Of a DNA stretch of 64,000 nucleotides, positions 40,987 to 48,566 are shown one piece after another. Positions within the stretch are counted from its first letter, which is position 1, and each line of letters begins with the position of its first letter. The stretch covers positions 3,948,439 through 4,012,438 of the forward strand of contig NZ_CP036150.1 of NCBI RefSeq assembly GCF_008329965.1, read 5' to 3'. Position numbers and translations under genes: made by a program. Origin of the DNA: Oceanispirochaeta crateris (lineage in GTDB: Bacteria; Spirochaetota; Spirochaetia; DSM-2461). The notes beneath the pieces are model-generated. The model was not told the DNA's origin. It saw only the letters and a list, made by a program, of their open reading frames with translations, and ran no database searches.

Positions 40987-42186
40987 TTATGACGGTTTCT
41001 GGCCGAAATGAAATGGCTTTTTGACTATCAGGAGCTGACAGGACAGAAAAGAGAGAAAGAAAAGGCTTGTCTGCAGGTTACCCTGATGAAAGTAAACAGC
41101 ATTGAATAGGACCATCAGGACCCAGAGGCCTCCCTGGATCTGCCAGAATCTTAAGAGCTTTTCCGCCGAATTCCTGGTAAGGATGAACCCTGCCACCAGG
41201 TACAGGGGGTGAAACATGAGAACATTGATATTCTCTCGGGCAACCAGGTGGTCTGTGAAGAATGAAATGAACCATACAGTCAGCCCAAAGAGGCTGAAAA
41301 TCGTCATAATAAACACAAATAGAAAGACAAACACGGACTTCCTCCGCTCTCCTAAGGACAGGCTTTGAAGCATCATGAGCAAGACACCCGCAGCCAGGCC
41401 ATAGAGCAGAGCGGGAACCGCCAAGGAAGGAGCTGTTTCGGGTATAGTCCTGTTTCTGGATGATTCTGCAAGGACTCGTGTACTCAAAACAGCAGGCTCG
41501 AGGCTGTCTCCGGATTTAACCTGGAGGAGAGAGAGTTGCTTCATCAGTTCATCGGGTAGGAACATGGTTTCCCATACGCTAATGGGACTGTCAATTGTTC
41601 TGCCCTGTAGGAGTGACAAGAGCCAGTCCGGGAAGAAGCTATGGCTTGTATAGCGTCTGAAACTCCCCCTGAAGCTGGTTCCTGCATCCCTATCTGTGGC
41701 GTCTTTCAGCTGCCCGTCCAATGCCTTGTCGATGATGTCTCGAGGTCGGGTGGAGCAGTTATCCAGGTAATGGTGATAGAGGTATGTATTGTTGCCGGGA
41801 AGGATATTCCTTTCCAATTCTTCCTTCATTTCTAGAATCTTTTCGCTGGGGATGTTTAGTTTCAGGAGTGTGACGTTTCTATCTTCTGTAACAATGTAGT
41901 TTTGATAGGCCCTGGCAGAGACACCAACCTTAAGGTAAACAAGACGTCCCATGGCAAAATTTCTGTAAAAATGGTCTGACTTGAATGAAAAATTGCCAAA
42001 ATCGTAAAATTGGGAGTGATTTTCCTCCTCAATGATGATTCCTGTGTGACCAAACCAGAGGTAGAGATCCTTTCCCGGTCCAATTGTCAGGAGATAGCAG
42101 TTGAGTTCCTCTTTCTGAATCTGGGCCGAAAGGGGAGCGAAGGCAGCGGGAAATATCAGAACTAAAATCAGGAAAAGCTGTTTCAA
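40987..42186 (-). CDS. DUF4105 protein with C-terminal membrane helices
   Basis: The 399-residue protein begins with a signal peptide (LFLILVLIFPAAFAPLSAQ). The DUF4105 (Lnb N-terminal, cysteine-peptidase-like) domain follows: YLLTIGPGKDLYLWFGHTGI, FYDFGNFSF and HHYLDNCSTRPRDIIDKAL, whose Cys and His are the probable active site. The last third has four hydrophobic helices (from TAPSLAVPALLYGL onward). The family is periplasmic and may cleave lipids, glycans or peptides; no substrate is known. It is divergent from the histone gene. The ribosome-binding site GGAGG is present. Confidence 0.88.
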   Translation of the reverse strand: MKQLFLILVLIFPAAFAPLSAQIQKEELNCYLLTIGPGKDLYLWFGHTGIIIEEENHSQFYDFGNFSFKSDHFYRNFAMGRLVYLKVGVSARAYQNYIVTEDRNVTLLKLNIPSEKILEMKEELERNILPGNNTYLYHHYLDNCSTRPRDIIDKALDGQLKDATDRDAGTSFRGSFRRYTSHSFFPDWLLSLLQGRTIDSPISVWETMFLPDELMKQLSLLQVKSGDSLEPAVLSTRVLAESSRNRTIPETAPSLAVPALLYGLAAGVLLMMLQSLSLGERRKSVFVFLFVFIMTIFSLFGLTVWFISFFTDHLVARENINVLMFHPLYLVAGFILTRNSAEKLLRFWQIQGGLWVLMVLFNAVYFHQGNLQTSLFFLSFLSCQLLIVKKPFHFGQKPS

Positions 42187-42336
42187 ATAGATCCTCCAGG
42201 GTATAAAAAAGAAGAAATGACTGGGATATATTATTCTAAGGGTCTATTTTTTTCCAGCGCTTTGCCTTTTTCTATTTATTTACTTTCTTAAACTGTGATA
42301 GAATAGGCCTCAACTAATTGGCATAAGGAGCAATTT

Positions 42337-42522
42337 ATGGCTGAAAAAGAAACCCTGGTGGTATCATCTAAGGTTAAAAACTACATCAAAAGCAATGGTG
42401 ATCTGAAATGTTCCGCAAAAGTTATTGATGTTTTATCTGACAAGATCAGGGAAATGTGTGATGCAGCAATTGAAAAAGCAAAGAATGATAAAAGAAAAAC
42501 TGTTCAGGAAAAAGATTTCTAA
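42337..42522 (+). CDS. bacterial histone-fold protein, 61 aa
   Basis: The product MAEKETLVVSSKVKNYIKS... is 61 residues. It aligns by eye with the histone fold: a first short helix (SSKVKNYIKSNG), a long central helix (SAKVIDVLSDKIREMCDAAI, continuing EKAKNDKR), the KRKTV loop and a short last helix (QEKDF). In archaeal histones the same loop is RKT(I/V) followed by a Glu-Asp pair, and the paired Arg-Thr is structural. Short singlet histones occur in Bdellovibrio and Leptospira, where they bind DNA. AAGGAG precedes the ATG and a strong terminator follows, so it is a single-gene transcript. No partner or second histone gene is present. Confidence 0.85.
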   Translation: MAEKETLVVSSKVKNYIKSNGDLKCSAKVIDVLSDKIREMCDAAIEKAKNDKRKTVQEKDF

Positions 42523-42562
42523 ACAGTGATTCCTTGAGAATCAAATCTTTAACCAACAAAAG

Positions 42563-42593
42563 AAGCTGCCTTTTCATAAGGGCAGCTTTTTTT
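42563..42593 (+). terminator. rho-independent terminator of histone gene
   Basis: AAGCTGCC and GGCAGCTT pair around a 10-base loop followed by seven T residues. The reverse strand also has T residues, so it may serve the convergent lipid kinase gene too. Confidence 0.88.
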
Positions 42594-42638
42594 GGTTTGA
42601 TCTTCTTTCCAGTATGGAAAAGAGAGGCCCAATAGCCT

Positions 42639-43568
42639 TTATCCCTTGATCAGTTCCAATGCTCCGGGCAGGCAGTGAACATCTACGTCTTTGGCCTCGG
42701 TGCTCAAAGTTTCCCCATCGGCATGTATGACCAGAGCGCCCTTGCGTGCTACAACTCTGAATTTCCTGCCCAGGGATGTGAATGTATCCTCTCTTATATC
42801 CTGAGTTCCCTTATAGTAGTCAGCAAGGGCCGAAATCATGATTCTGCGGGTGTTCTGCTGGGTGGTGTGCAGGTCCAGTAAGCCGTCTGTCATGTTTCCC
42901 TTCGGTGCCATCAAAAAGGCTCCTCCCAGGCGTTTCCCATTCATGAAGGAGATCAAAGCCGCTTGGCTCTGAATCATTTGATCATCGTAGAAGAGATCTA
43001 CTTCGGGAGCTTCGGGGTAGGTAATGATCGTTTTAAGAGCCGCGTATATATAACCCTGAAACCATTTGACCTTGGCAGCTTCCGCGTTGACAATGGCATC
43101 AAAACCAAGACCCACACCATTGGCAAAATAGCGTCCTTCACTGGCTTCGCCGCCCCTGACCCAGCCGATGTCCAGGAGAATTGTCTTATCCTGAATCAGA
43201 TTCTCCAAGGAATCTTTGAGATTCAAAGGGATGCCGGCGCCAAAGGCAAAATCGTTTCCTCTTCCAATGGGAAGGACTCCGAAGGCGGGAAGGGGGCTGT
43301 CGTTTCCTATGTTTTTGAAAGTCATAAGGCCGTTCACCACTTCATTACAGGTTCCATCTCCTCCGGCGGCGACGATGGCGCACTCCTGGTGATGTTCCTT
43401 TTCGGCTAAAGATGCAGCCAGTTGGGCTGCATGACCCGGTTTTTCAGTCTTGTGGACAGTGTAGGTCACACCTTTTTCTTTAAAAAAATCAGCCAGGGTA
43501 GAGAGTTTGTTCAAAGCTCTGCCTTTCCCTGCTGCAGGATTCAGGATCAGATGATAGTGATCTTTCAG
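42639..43568 (-). CDS. diacylglycerol/lipid kinase family, CUG start
   Basis: The body (VAAGGDGTCNEVVNGLMTF, PIGRGNDFAFGAG, ANGVGLGFDA, PKGNMTDGLLDL) is the DagK/YegS-type lipid kinase. The family's first strand and Gly-rich loop, HLILNPAAGKGRA, is coded upstream of the first usual start (TTG 43514). The frame contains no ATG, GTG or TTG before it after a stop at the preceding TAA. The only placement with a ribosome-binding site is CTG 43568, six bases after GAGGAG. The kinase would phosphorylate diacylglycerol or a related lipid with ATP. The CUG start is inferred; see findings. Confidence 0.82.
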   Translation of the reverse strand: MKDHYHLILNPAAGKGRALNKLSTLADFFKEKGVTYTVHKTEKPGHAAQLAASLAEKEHHQECAIVAAGGDGTCNEVVNGLMTFKNIGNDSPLPAFGVLPIGRGNDFAFGAGIPLNLKDSLENLIQDKTILLDIGWVRGGEASEGRYFANGVGLGFDAIVNAEAAKVKWFQGYIYAALKTIITYPEAPEVDLFYDDQMIQSQAALISFMNGKRLGGAFLMAPKGNMTDGLLDLHTTQQNTRRIMISALADYYKGTQDIREDTFTSLGRKFRVVARKGALVIHADGETLSTEAKDVDVHCLPGALELIKG

Positions 43569-45104: not shown

Positions 45105-47243
45105 ATGCCGCATTCAATCAGTACTACAGTGCGCCGTAAGGATGCCGTTGCTAAAGCAGCGGGCACAATGGAGTATCTTTCCGACCAGTTCCCTGTCTCA
45201 CCCCTTCATGGGAAGTGTTATTACTCATCAATTCAAAGAGGGCTTATCGAATCTGTCAGCCTGCCTGAGGTACCAGAAGGGTATCATATTCTGGGAGCCG
45301 ACGATGTCCCCGGGGTCAATAGCCTCCATATGATCATAGAAGACTGGCCTGTGTTTGCTGATAAAGAGGTTCGCTATCTGGGGCAGATTATTTTTCTTAT
45401 AGTTGGCCCCGAAAAAGACGTCATACTGGATATTCATCGGAAAATCAGGGTTAACTACAAGGAGATCCCTCCCTGTACGACTCTAGAGGATTCGATCGCC
45501 CTGAAGGGTGGAGTCCAGCATGGAGAGGACAATGTTTTTACCCGCTATGATATTCATCATGGACAGGTCGATCCGCCCTTTGAGTCTGCCCATCGTATTC
45601 TGGAAAAAGAGTATTACACCGGACATCAGGAACATGTCTATATGGAACCTCAGAGCCTGTTTGCCCATTGGGAAGATGATTCATTTATTCTTCATGCTTC
45701 GGCTCAGTGTCCTTTTTATATCAGAAAGTCTCTGGTCAATGCCCTGGGGATGGAACCGGAGAAAATTAGGATTATTCAGACTCCCACTGGGGGCGCCTTC
45801 GGTGGAAAGGAACACTTTCCGGATGTTCTGGCCGGTCCTCTGGCCGTGGCTGTATATAAGGTGAAAAAGCCCATTAAACTTGTGCTGGATCGTAAGGAAG
45901 ATATGGCTTATTCCATAAAACGCCATCCCAGTGCCATTCATATAAAGACAGCCCTGGATAAGGAAGGAAAGATTCTAGCTCATGATATTGATATACGTCT
46001 GGATGGAGGCGCCTATTCCAGCTGTTCTGCCGTTGTCCTTGCCAGAGCTGTTTTTACTGTGGGAAATGTTTACAACATAAAAAATATACGCATTGCCGGT
46101 AGGGCTTTCTGTACCAATAAACCGCCTTCTGATGCTTTTCGCGGATTTGGAGCGCCCCAGGCTATCTTTGCCATGGAGTCTCATATGAACTACCTCGCCT
46201 ATGAGCTTGGCCAGGATCCTCTGGCTTTCCGTCAACCCTATCTGATGAAGCAGGGAGACCCCACAACTACTGATGGAAAAATTCATGAAAAGGTTATGCT
46301 TCCCGAGATGACCAAGCGTATCCTGGAGATGTCGGGGTATGGGAAAAAATATCAGGATTACAAGAATATACCCTACAAGGGTATAGGGCTCTCTTACTTT
46401 TTTCATGGCAGTGGTTTCACCGGCAATGGAGAGAGAGACCTCATCAAAGCCCGTATTTATCTGAAGAAAGACCATAATGATCATGTTTATATCTATGGTT
46501 CCAATGTAGAGATGGGTCAGGGAATCAGCACAACCTTCTGCAAGGTCGCATCCAAGGCCTTAGACCTTCCCTTTGAACAGGTTCATTTTGTCGAACCAGA
46601 TACAGAAATTGTGCCCGATTCTGGGCCGACTGTGGCCTCCCGTTCGATCTCTGTGGTCGGCTTTCTTGTACAGAAGGCGGCAGAAAAGCTGAAGAAAGAT
46701 TGGAAGAGCGGAGAAGAACAGACAATCATTCAGGACTATGAAGCTCCAACACATATGGTGCCCTGGGATCAGAACACTCTGAAAGGAGATGCCTATCCTG
46801 CCTATAGCTGGGGTGTAAATGTCATTGAGGTTGAGGTAGACCCCATTACTTTCGAGGTGAATACCAAGGGCATCTGGGGTGTTTACGAGATGGGAGTTCC
46901 CATCGACAGGCAAATTGTAGAAGGGCAGATCATCGGAGGGATGGTCCAGGCATTGGGTTATAGTTACCTTGAAAAGCTTGAATTTTCAGATGGCCGCTTC
47001 AGGCAGGCCACTATGTCAGACTACATGATTCCGACAAGTATGGATTTTCCATCCACCAAGAGTGCGATTGTGGACAATCCTTTTGAATATGGAGCCTATG
47101 GTGCCAAAGGGGCTGGCGAAATGGTTTTCGACGGTGCCGCTCCGGCATTCGGCGCTGCCGTATCGCAGGCCGTAGATACAATAATTGATGAGGTTCCCGT
47201 ACTTCCGGAAACCCTGATGGAGCTGACAGATGAAGGACGGTAA
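45105..47243 (+). CDS. xanthine dehydrogenase-type molybdenum subunit
   Basis: The 712-residue subunit binds the molybdopterin cofactor and the substrate. Landmarks are PTGGAFGGKEHFPDVLA (about residue 226), DAFRGFGAPQ (about 345, the substrate-binding Arg of purine-oxidising members, unlike the CO dehydrogenase loop), EMGQGISTTFCKVASKAL and the catalytic Glu in YGAKGAGEMVF near the C terminus. It probably hydroxylates a purine or similar heterocycle. It is encoded with the [2Fe-2S] and FAD subunits. The ribosome-binding site is GGGGGAA. No XdhC-type insertion factor is in view. Confidence 0.92.
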   Translation: MPHSISTTVRRKDAVAKAAGTMEYLSDQFPVSPLHGKCYYSSIQRGLIESVSLPEVPEGYHILGADDVPGVNSLHMIIEDWPVFADKEVRYLGQIIFLIVGPEKDVILDIHRKIRVNYKEIPPCTTLEDSIALKGGVQHGEDNVFTRYDIHHGQVDPPFESAHRILEKEYYTGHQEHVYMEPQSLFAHWEDDSFILHASAQCPFYIRKSLVNALGMEPEKIRIIQTPTGGAFGGKEHFPDVLAGPLAVAVYKVKKPIKLVLDRKEDMAYSIKRHPSAIHIKTALDKEGKILAHDIDIRLDGGAYSSCSAVVLARAVFTVGNVYNIKNIRIAGRAFCTNKPPSDAFRGFGAPQAIFAMESHMNYLAYELGQDPLAFRQPYLMKQGDPTTTDGKIHEKVMLPEMTKRILEMSGYGKKYQDYKNIPYKGIGLSYFFHGSGFTGNGERDLIKARIYLKKDHNDHVYIYGSNVEMGQGISTTFCKVASKALDLPFEQVHFVEPDTEIVPDSGPTVASRSISVVGFLVQKAAEKLKKDWKSGEEQTIIQDYEAPTHMVPWDQNTLKGDAYPAYSWGVNVIEVEVDPITFEVNTKGIWGVYEMGVPIDRQIVEGQIIGGMVQALGYSYLEKLEFSDGRFRQATMSDYMIPTSMDFPSTKSAIVDNPFEYGAYGAKGAGEMVFDGAAPAFGAAVSQAVDTIIDEVPVLPETLMELTDEGR

Positions 47244-47709
47244 GATTAGATTCACCCTGAATGGCAGGGAAGTTGTGTATGAGGACAGTCCTTTGCGGCG
47301 GCTTCTGGATGTGCTCCGGGAAGATCTGGGAGAAACAGGGGTCAAAGAAGGTTGTGGGGAAGGAGAGTGCGGTGCTTGCAGCATCCTTCTGGATGGAAAG
47401 CTCGTTAACAGCTGTATGGTAGCCATGGGAACCATGGAGGGGAAGAACCTGATGACAATAGAAGGTCTCCGAGAGACCGAACAAGGTAAGTGTATCATCG
47501 ATGCTTTTGCTGAGGCCGGAGCCGTTCAGTGCGGCTTTTGTATTCCTGGGATGGTCATGGCTGCACAGTCTGTTCTCCAGGACTCTCCCCACCCCTCTGA
47601 ACAGGACATCCGTAAAGGGATTTCAGGTAATCTCTGCCGTTGTACCGGGTATGACCAAATCATTCAGGCGGTTCTCACTGCATCTGAAAAGGGGGAAGGG
47701 TTATGGTAA
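47230..47709 (+). CDS. [2Fe-2S] subunit of molybdenum hydroxylase
   Basis: The 159 residues contain the plant-type cluster motif GCGEGECGACSILLDGK (about residues 43-59), then the second cluster motif QCGFCIPGMVMA and SGNLCRCTGYDQI in the helical C-terminal domain. It relays electrons from the molybdenum centre to FAD. It starts 14 bases inside the end of the molybdenum subunit gene and its end overlaps the FAD subunit gene by seven bases, so all three are translationally coupled. Confidence 0.95.
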   Translation: MKDGKIRFTLNGREVVYEDSPLRRLLDVLREDLGETGVKEGCGEGECGACSILLDGKLVNSCMVAMGTMEGKNLMTIEGLRETEQGKCIIDAFAEAGAVQCGFCIPGMVMAAQSVLQDSPHPSEQDIRKGISGNLCRCTGYDQIIQAVLTASEKGEGLW

Positions 47710-48566
47710 AATTCTTCTATCCCCAGAGCCTTGCCGAGGCTTTGGAAATTAAAGACAATCAGAAGGTCATCCCCCTGGCAGGGGGCACAGACTTGATGGT
47801 CCGCTATGAAAACTGGAGCAGTCTTCCTGCCAGTTTTCCTTCGTCTGTCATGGCTGTTGGACATCTCAAAGAACTCCAGTATGTGAAAGAAGAAGATGGG
47901 TTTCTTGTTTTAGGAGGAGGGGTGACCCTGAACCAACTTCTGCTGGATGAACGGATTCCCCGTTCTCTGGCCCTGGCTCTTGATGAGATTGCCGCACCGG
48001 CACTTCGAAATCTGGCAACACTGGCGGGTAATCTTCAAAATGCCTCACCTGCAGCAGATTCCTTGCCTCCTCTATTGGTTGCAGATGCCAGAGTACGCCT
48101 CGTATCAAAGGACAACACCCGGGTTCTTCCCATCAAAGATTTTGTAACAGCCCCCGGAAAAACTTGCCTGAATGAGAATGAACTGATCGAATCAATTCTG
48201 ATTCCCCTGGAATATATCCGTCAGGAAAAAGATGGAACTCTGGTATACAGGAAAGTGGGAACAAGGAAGGCCAATGCTCTGTCAAAGCTATCGGTCTGCT
48301 TTTGGGTACTGAAGGATCAGGATGGGATTAAGGATCTCAGGTTGTCTTTGGGTGCTGTTTCTGCCGTTGTGGTTCGACTTAAAGAGTCGGAAGAGAAGCT
48401 CAAGGGGCTGAAGTCATCAGAGCTGATGTCCGCCTGGAAAAATGTCCGGCCGGATTATGAAAAAGCCATCCGTCCCATAGACGATCAGCGTTCCACTGCG
48501 GTCTATAGAAAACGAACGGCTCTTAAGCTTTTGGATGCGTTTATTCAGGATGCTTCAGAGGGCTGA
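47703..48566 (+). CDS. FAD-binding subunit of molybdenum hydroxylase
   Basis: The 287-residue subunit starts MVKFFYPQSLAEALEIKDNQ and has the FAD pyrophosphate loop PLAGGTDLMV and the second FAD motif TLAGNLQNASPAADSLPPLL, then the CO dehydrogenase flavoprotein C-terminal domain (VRLKESEEKLKG region). It passes electrons to NAD+ or another acceptor. It overlaps convergently the end of the TSCPD gene by 22 bases. Confidence 0.93.
   Translation: MVKFFYPQSLAEALEIKDNQKVIPLAGGTDLMVRYENWSSLPASFPSSVMAVGHLKELQYVKEEDGFLVLGGGVTLNQLLLDERIPRSLALALDEIAAPALRNLATLAGNLQNASPAADSLPPLLVADARVRLVSKDNTRVLPIKDFVTAPGKTCLNENELIESILIPLEYIRQEKDGTLVYRKVGTRKANALSKLSVCFWVLKDQDGIKDLRLSLGAVSAVVVRLKESEEKLKGLKSSELMSAWKNVRPDYEKAIRPIDDQRSTAVYRKRTALKLLDAFIQDASEG

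Follow-up and report, generated by a model that had tools for sequence, protein, structure and literature searches.

The open reading frame at positions 42337-42522 on the forward strand of the window (the whole 64,000-nucleotide stretch of Oceanispirochaeta crateris DNA that was analysed) encodes a 61-residue histone, MAEKETLVVSSKVKNYIKSNGDLKCSAKVIDVLSDKIREMCDAAIEKAKNDKRKTVQEKDF, followed by a stop codon. Judged by its residues, the protein is a histone of the "bacterial dimer" type, which belongs to the alpha-3 superfamily and is represented by HBb (Bd0055) of Bdellovibrio bacteriovorus, and is not a tetrameric face-to-face (FtF) histone. There is a high probability that the whole set of results describes a dimer histone whose homodimers would bend DNA nonspecifically and which would act as an abundant nucleoid protein beside HU. 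The reading frame is a genuine gene, beyond chance, because its product scores above the curated cut-off of the histone family PF00808 (23.3 bits, cut-off 21.4), matches HBb with a phmmer value of 1.8e-11 and shows a dN/dS of 0.008-0.08 in comparisons with five copies from its own genus and a number of more distant copies, the range being that of pairs with unsaturated dS. The gene is thus under strong purifying selection. The initial annotation had proposed a singlet bacterial histone from a spirochaete other than Leptospira, to be checked by a profile search against histone-fold families; the PF00808 match, the phmmer ranking and the predicted fold bear this out.

The gene stands alone between a divergent gene for a membrane protein with an Lnb_N domain (40987-42186, reverse strand), which is syntenic with it throughout the family, and a convergent gene of the diacylglycerol kinase family (42639-43514, reverse strand). 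It has no operon partner and its product has no fused domain. A ribosome-binding site, AAGGAG (42325-42330, forward strand), lies 6 nt 5' of the ATG and is the same in the same-genus copies. An intrinsic terminator (42557-42594, forward strand) has a stem of 17 pairs with a T-run behind it. Both elements had been attributed to the gene in the initial annotation and are indeed its own. A stem and T-run recur at the place of the terminator in relatives, with a different sequence. A scan with the sigma-70 consensus gave no promoter site. The stretch TGATAGAAT (42296-42304, forward strand), whose TAGAAT core occurs in all five same-genus copies, is a candidate extended -10 element and may serve as the promoter.

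The codon adaptation index of the gene, calculated over its 61 codons with the genome's own ribosomal-protein genes as reference and not to be read as a protein measurement, is 0.78. This is higher than in all 49 mechanically called reading frames of at least 120 residues in the window (median 0.59) and in each of the 24 genes in the ribosomal-protein region (0.64-0.75). Upon resampling of synonymous codons, the value was matched in 0.12% of trials with background usage and in 13% with ribosomal-type usage. The codon usage fits that of an abundant protein.

Within its own family the gene was found in 25 of the 26 sampled genomes, the missing one being 77% complete. In the class it occurs in 64 of 395 genomes from 17 families, with one match each, and a sample of the phylum gave matches in 40 of 296 genomes. 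In two families of the latter sample (f63 and f39) most of the histones are of the FtF type judging by their residues, having RST or RTT and an N at the place of N53 of HLp, the Leptospira histone. Relatives are also found in Myxococcota, Bdellovibrionota, Planctomycetota, Chlamydiota and others. An Lnb-like gene adjoins the histone gene in all 17 loci of its own family (f1) that were among the short fetches (L001-L011, L014, L015, L017-L020), and M16, rhodanese and M23 genes are also kept in order in the longer family loci. This shared synteny indicates that the gene is vertically inherited within the family. Recent horizontal acquisition within the family is ruled out by the 25/26 presence together with the constant Lnb-like neighbour, and contamination by an assembly consisting of one 4.0-Mb contig and by congeners that share the locus. 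A close relative with 68% identity lies on a contig labelled Nitrosovibrio sp. Nv4 (MAG; L068), where a binning error is more likely than a betaproteobacterial histone.

A PF00808 search of the genome found no second histone. The genome has four HU-family matches, which rule out the histone as the sole nucleoid protein, and HU was present in all 39 good-quality genomes of the sample searched for HU, with or without the histone. Most likely the histone works beside HU, as in Bdellovibrio. With HU also encoded, the histone is no evidence for histone-only chromatin. Some 300 bp ahead of the window (G000:C1:3947587-3948136) there are two adjacent HU-family domains, the second of which lies in a 407-residue open frame and is probably fused to something else.

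The AlphaFold2 model of the monomer, based on 47 aligned sequences, is of moderate confidence (pLDDT 83, pTM 0.58). DSSP assigns helix 1 to residues 10-21, helix 2 to residues 27-50 and a C-terminal turn to residues 58-60. The predicted fold is that of a histone with a shortened helix 2 and a one-turn helix 3, as in bacterial dimer histones, and it superposes on HBb with an rmsd of 0.6-0.8 Å, in agreement with the histone fold order claimed at the outset. Five HBb chains occupy the top Foldseek ranks (probability 1.00, TM 0.85-0.89, 52% identity). They are followed by HLp of Leptospira perolatii (PDB 9QT0, 9QT1, 9QT2; 1.0 Å, 42% identity) and by the archaeal FtF histone HTkC of Thermococcus kodakarensis (PDB 9F2C; 1.0 Å, 28% identity), which has the same alpha-3 fold but is a tetramer. 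The order in phmmer is the same, with HLp at 4.6e-10 and HTkC, matched as chain 9f2c and named "hypothetical protein", at 4.8e-4. In VIA-align, Z is 8.9-9.2 against HBb, 8.4-8.6 against HLp and 8.1 against HTkC, and no other histone fold exceeds 6.3.

The protein terminates one residue past D60 and has neither the full-length helix 2 nor the roughly 10-residue helix 3 of archaeal nucleosomal histones. Its score with the NCBIfam archaeal histone model, 25 bits, is below the cut-off of 50. HMfB of Methanothermus fervidus, a histone of that nucleosomal kind, shares the histone fold and the RKT...D motif, but its helix 2 is one turn longer, its helix 3 is of full length and it forms hypernucleosomes on DNA. 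The very short C-terminal helix, which had been regarded as unusual, is in fact ordinary: a third helix of 3-4 residues is given as the defining property of the alpha-3 superfamily (PMC11390915), and a one-turn third helix is described for the crystal structures of HBb (PMC11317129) and HLp.

Because HBb and HLp are tied by VIA Z, the fold by itself leaves the subtype unsettled; the residues and the tree settle it. As summarized by Schwab et al., bacterial dimer histones are without the helix-2 residues that these authors number R48 and N52, but retain the RKT...D motif (PMC11390915). The motif is found here in the loop as R53-K54-T55-V56-xxx-D60, the RKTV-x-x-x-D signature noted previously. 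The HLp tetramer is reported to be held by contacts of R49, S52 and N53 against F63, T61 and R55. At the places of HLp R49, N53 and R55 the window histone has K47, D51 and R53, so that one of these three interface residues is kept. The dimer-type assignment is made because R49 and N53 are missing, and a maximum-likelihood tree of 88 sequences agrees with it: a branch with support 100/99 sets the HLp clade apart from every other sequence, HBb and the window histone among them, the finer branching of this 62-column alignment being unreliable. FtF membership was rejected on these residues and this tree. HLp shares the alpha-3 fold, the RD clamp and a similar N-terminus with the window histone. 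A tetramer like that of HLp, wrapping about 60 bp of DNA, would suit the common phylum, the phmmer value, the rmsd of 1.0 Å and a VIA Z less than 1 from that of HBb. R53 and F61 also correspond to R55 and F63 of HLp, and K47, like R49, is a basic residue. Such a tetramer is nevertheless quite improbable, given that N53 is replaced by D51, that position 47 varies in close relatives (N, S or another residue), that K54 follows R53 at a place taken by S or T in FtF histones (RTTV in loop L2 of HLp, RKTV here), and that the histone falls outside the HLp clade. The organisms differ too, as Leptospira reportedly has neither HU nor Dps, its FtF histone being abundant and probably essential (PMC12701072; PMC10627809), whereas HU is encoded here. 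Two histones of another family (L092 and L094, f69) look intermediate, since they combine the N of FtF histones at the N53 position with RKTL in loop L2; their genomes (G165 and G175) have no HU match either.

Both by sequence and by predicted fold, the nearest solved structure to the dimer histone of the window is thus HBb (PDB 8CMP, 8FVX, 8FW7, 9EZZ, 9F0E). The two share the singlet fold, about the same length, the one-turn third helix, the RKTV loop, the helix-1 lysines, the lack of FtF tetramer residues and the coexistence with HU, and the RD clamp R53-D60 and its supporting D51 are retained. The host of the window protein is a spirochaete and not a predator of the Bdellovibrionota. In simulations, HBb is reported to contact DNA through N22, R57, S9, T53, T8, S24, K10, K12, K52 and K16, and one crystal form adds T23 and A25 (PMC11317129). 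Since HBb numbers are two lower, the matching positions here are K24, K59, S11, T55, S10, S26, K12, K14, K54, K18, C25 and A27, respectively. Eight of the twelve contacts are identical (HBb S9, K10, K12, K16, S24, A25, K52 and T53), three are still polar or basic (T8 to S10, N22 to K24, R57 to K59), and only T23, which has become C25, has changed in character. S11, K12, K14, R53, K54, T55 and D60 are invariant in 47 relatives, and K18 is nearly so.

By analogy with HBb, the 61-residue chains would homodimerise via their second helices. The paired L1-L2 loops (K24, S26, K54, T55, K59) would then grip the DNA backbone, together with the start of helix 1 (S10, S11, K12, K14). Each dimer would bend a few tens of base pairs with no sequence preference, and neither wrapped tetramers nor hypernucleosomes would be formed. 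In the cell, the protein would be an abundant, general nucleoid-bending protein alongside HU.

The binding mode of HBb itself is disputed, an end-on sheath on straight DNA (PMC10627809) being opposed to bending (PMC11317129). The same family of dimers might therefore coat straight DNA end-on, in the manner of the HBb co-crystal that was published first (Hocher et al. 2023), and the contacts of that crystal form (HBb K12, S24, A25, K52 and T53) are conserved here. However, so are the second-face contacts used for bending, HBb T8, S9 and K10, now S10, S11 and K12, of which the last two are invariant in the 47 relatives, and the solution and simulation data on HBb are reported to favour bending (PMC11317129). 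A sheath is accordingly improbable. More improbable still is that the protein has kept the histone fold but no longer organises the genome, acting for instance as a local regulator or as a subunit of a complex. HU presumably handles general compaction, and only 64 of the 395 class genomes have the gene, as might be expected of such a role. Against it stand the strong selection on the DNA-contact residues, the codon usage of an abundant protein and the solitary gene with its single-domain product.

Two cysteines of the window histone deserve mention. Almost every histone of the Spirochaetia clade has C25 (42409-42411), while HBb and other phyla have T there; C41 (42457-42459) is nearly invariant, and more widely than in that clade. 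In the passages of the literature consulted, this clade's cysteine at the HBb T23 contact is the only feature for which no description was found. It is a long shot that C25 and C41 make DNA binding by the Spirochaetia-clade histones responsive to redox state or metals; if they did, this bacterial sub-family would supply chromatin proteins that work alongside HU under regulation.

The histone does not extend the range of bacterial histones, as had been supposed. Dimer histones are already listed for the Spirochaetota, class Spirochaetia, by Schwab et al. 2024 (PMC11390915), and both taxa are mentioned by Hu et al. 2024 (PMC11317129). The find is sound but largely expected and leaves the known range and mechanism of these proteins unchanged. 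It does place two subtypes in one phylum: an HBb-like dimer with HU in part of the Spirochaetia, and the FtF tetramer in Leptospira-like lineages, the present histone being closer to the Bdellovibrio type than to that of its phylum-mate. As a vertically inherited gene that is near-universal in its family, it offers a useful comparison for the question of why some bacteria keep histones beside HU.

Two viral contigs of about 44 kb each (IMG/VR; L121:2977-3165 and L122:2977-3165, forward strand) carry a stand-alone 62-residue alpha-3 histone with RKTVMDKD and 44-48% identity to the window histone. In L121, genes for a ThyX-like protein, an AAA ATPase and a metallophosphoesterase lie close by. 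Since the published "phage histones" are described as lacking the RxTxxxD motif and having a C-terminal helical domain (PMC11390915), these look like a different, bacterial-dimer-like phage type. Elsewhere in the window, at 45105-48566, there is a xanthine dehydrogenase-type cluster that has a molybdopterin-binding subunit (Pfam), followed by apparent 2Fe-2S and FAD subunits identified by eye, and is preceded by GntR-type regulators.
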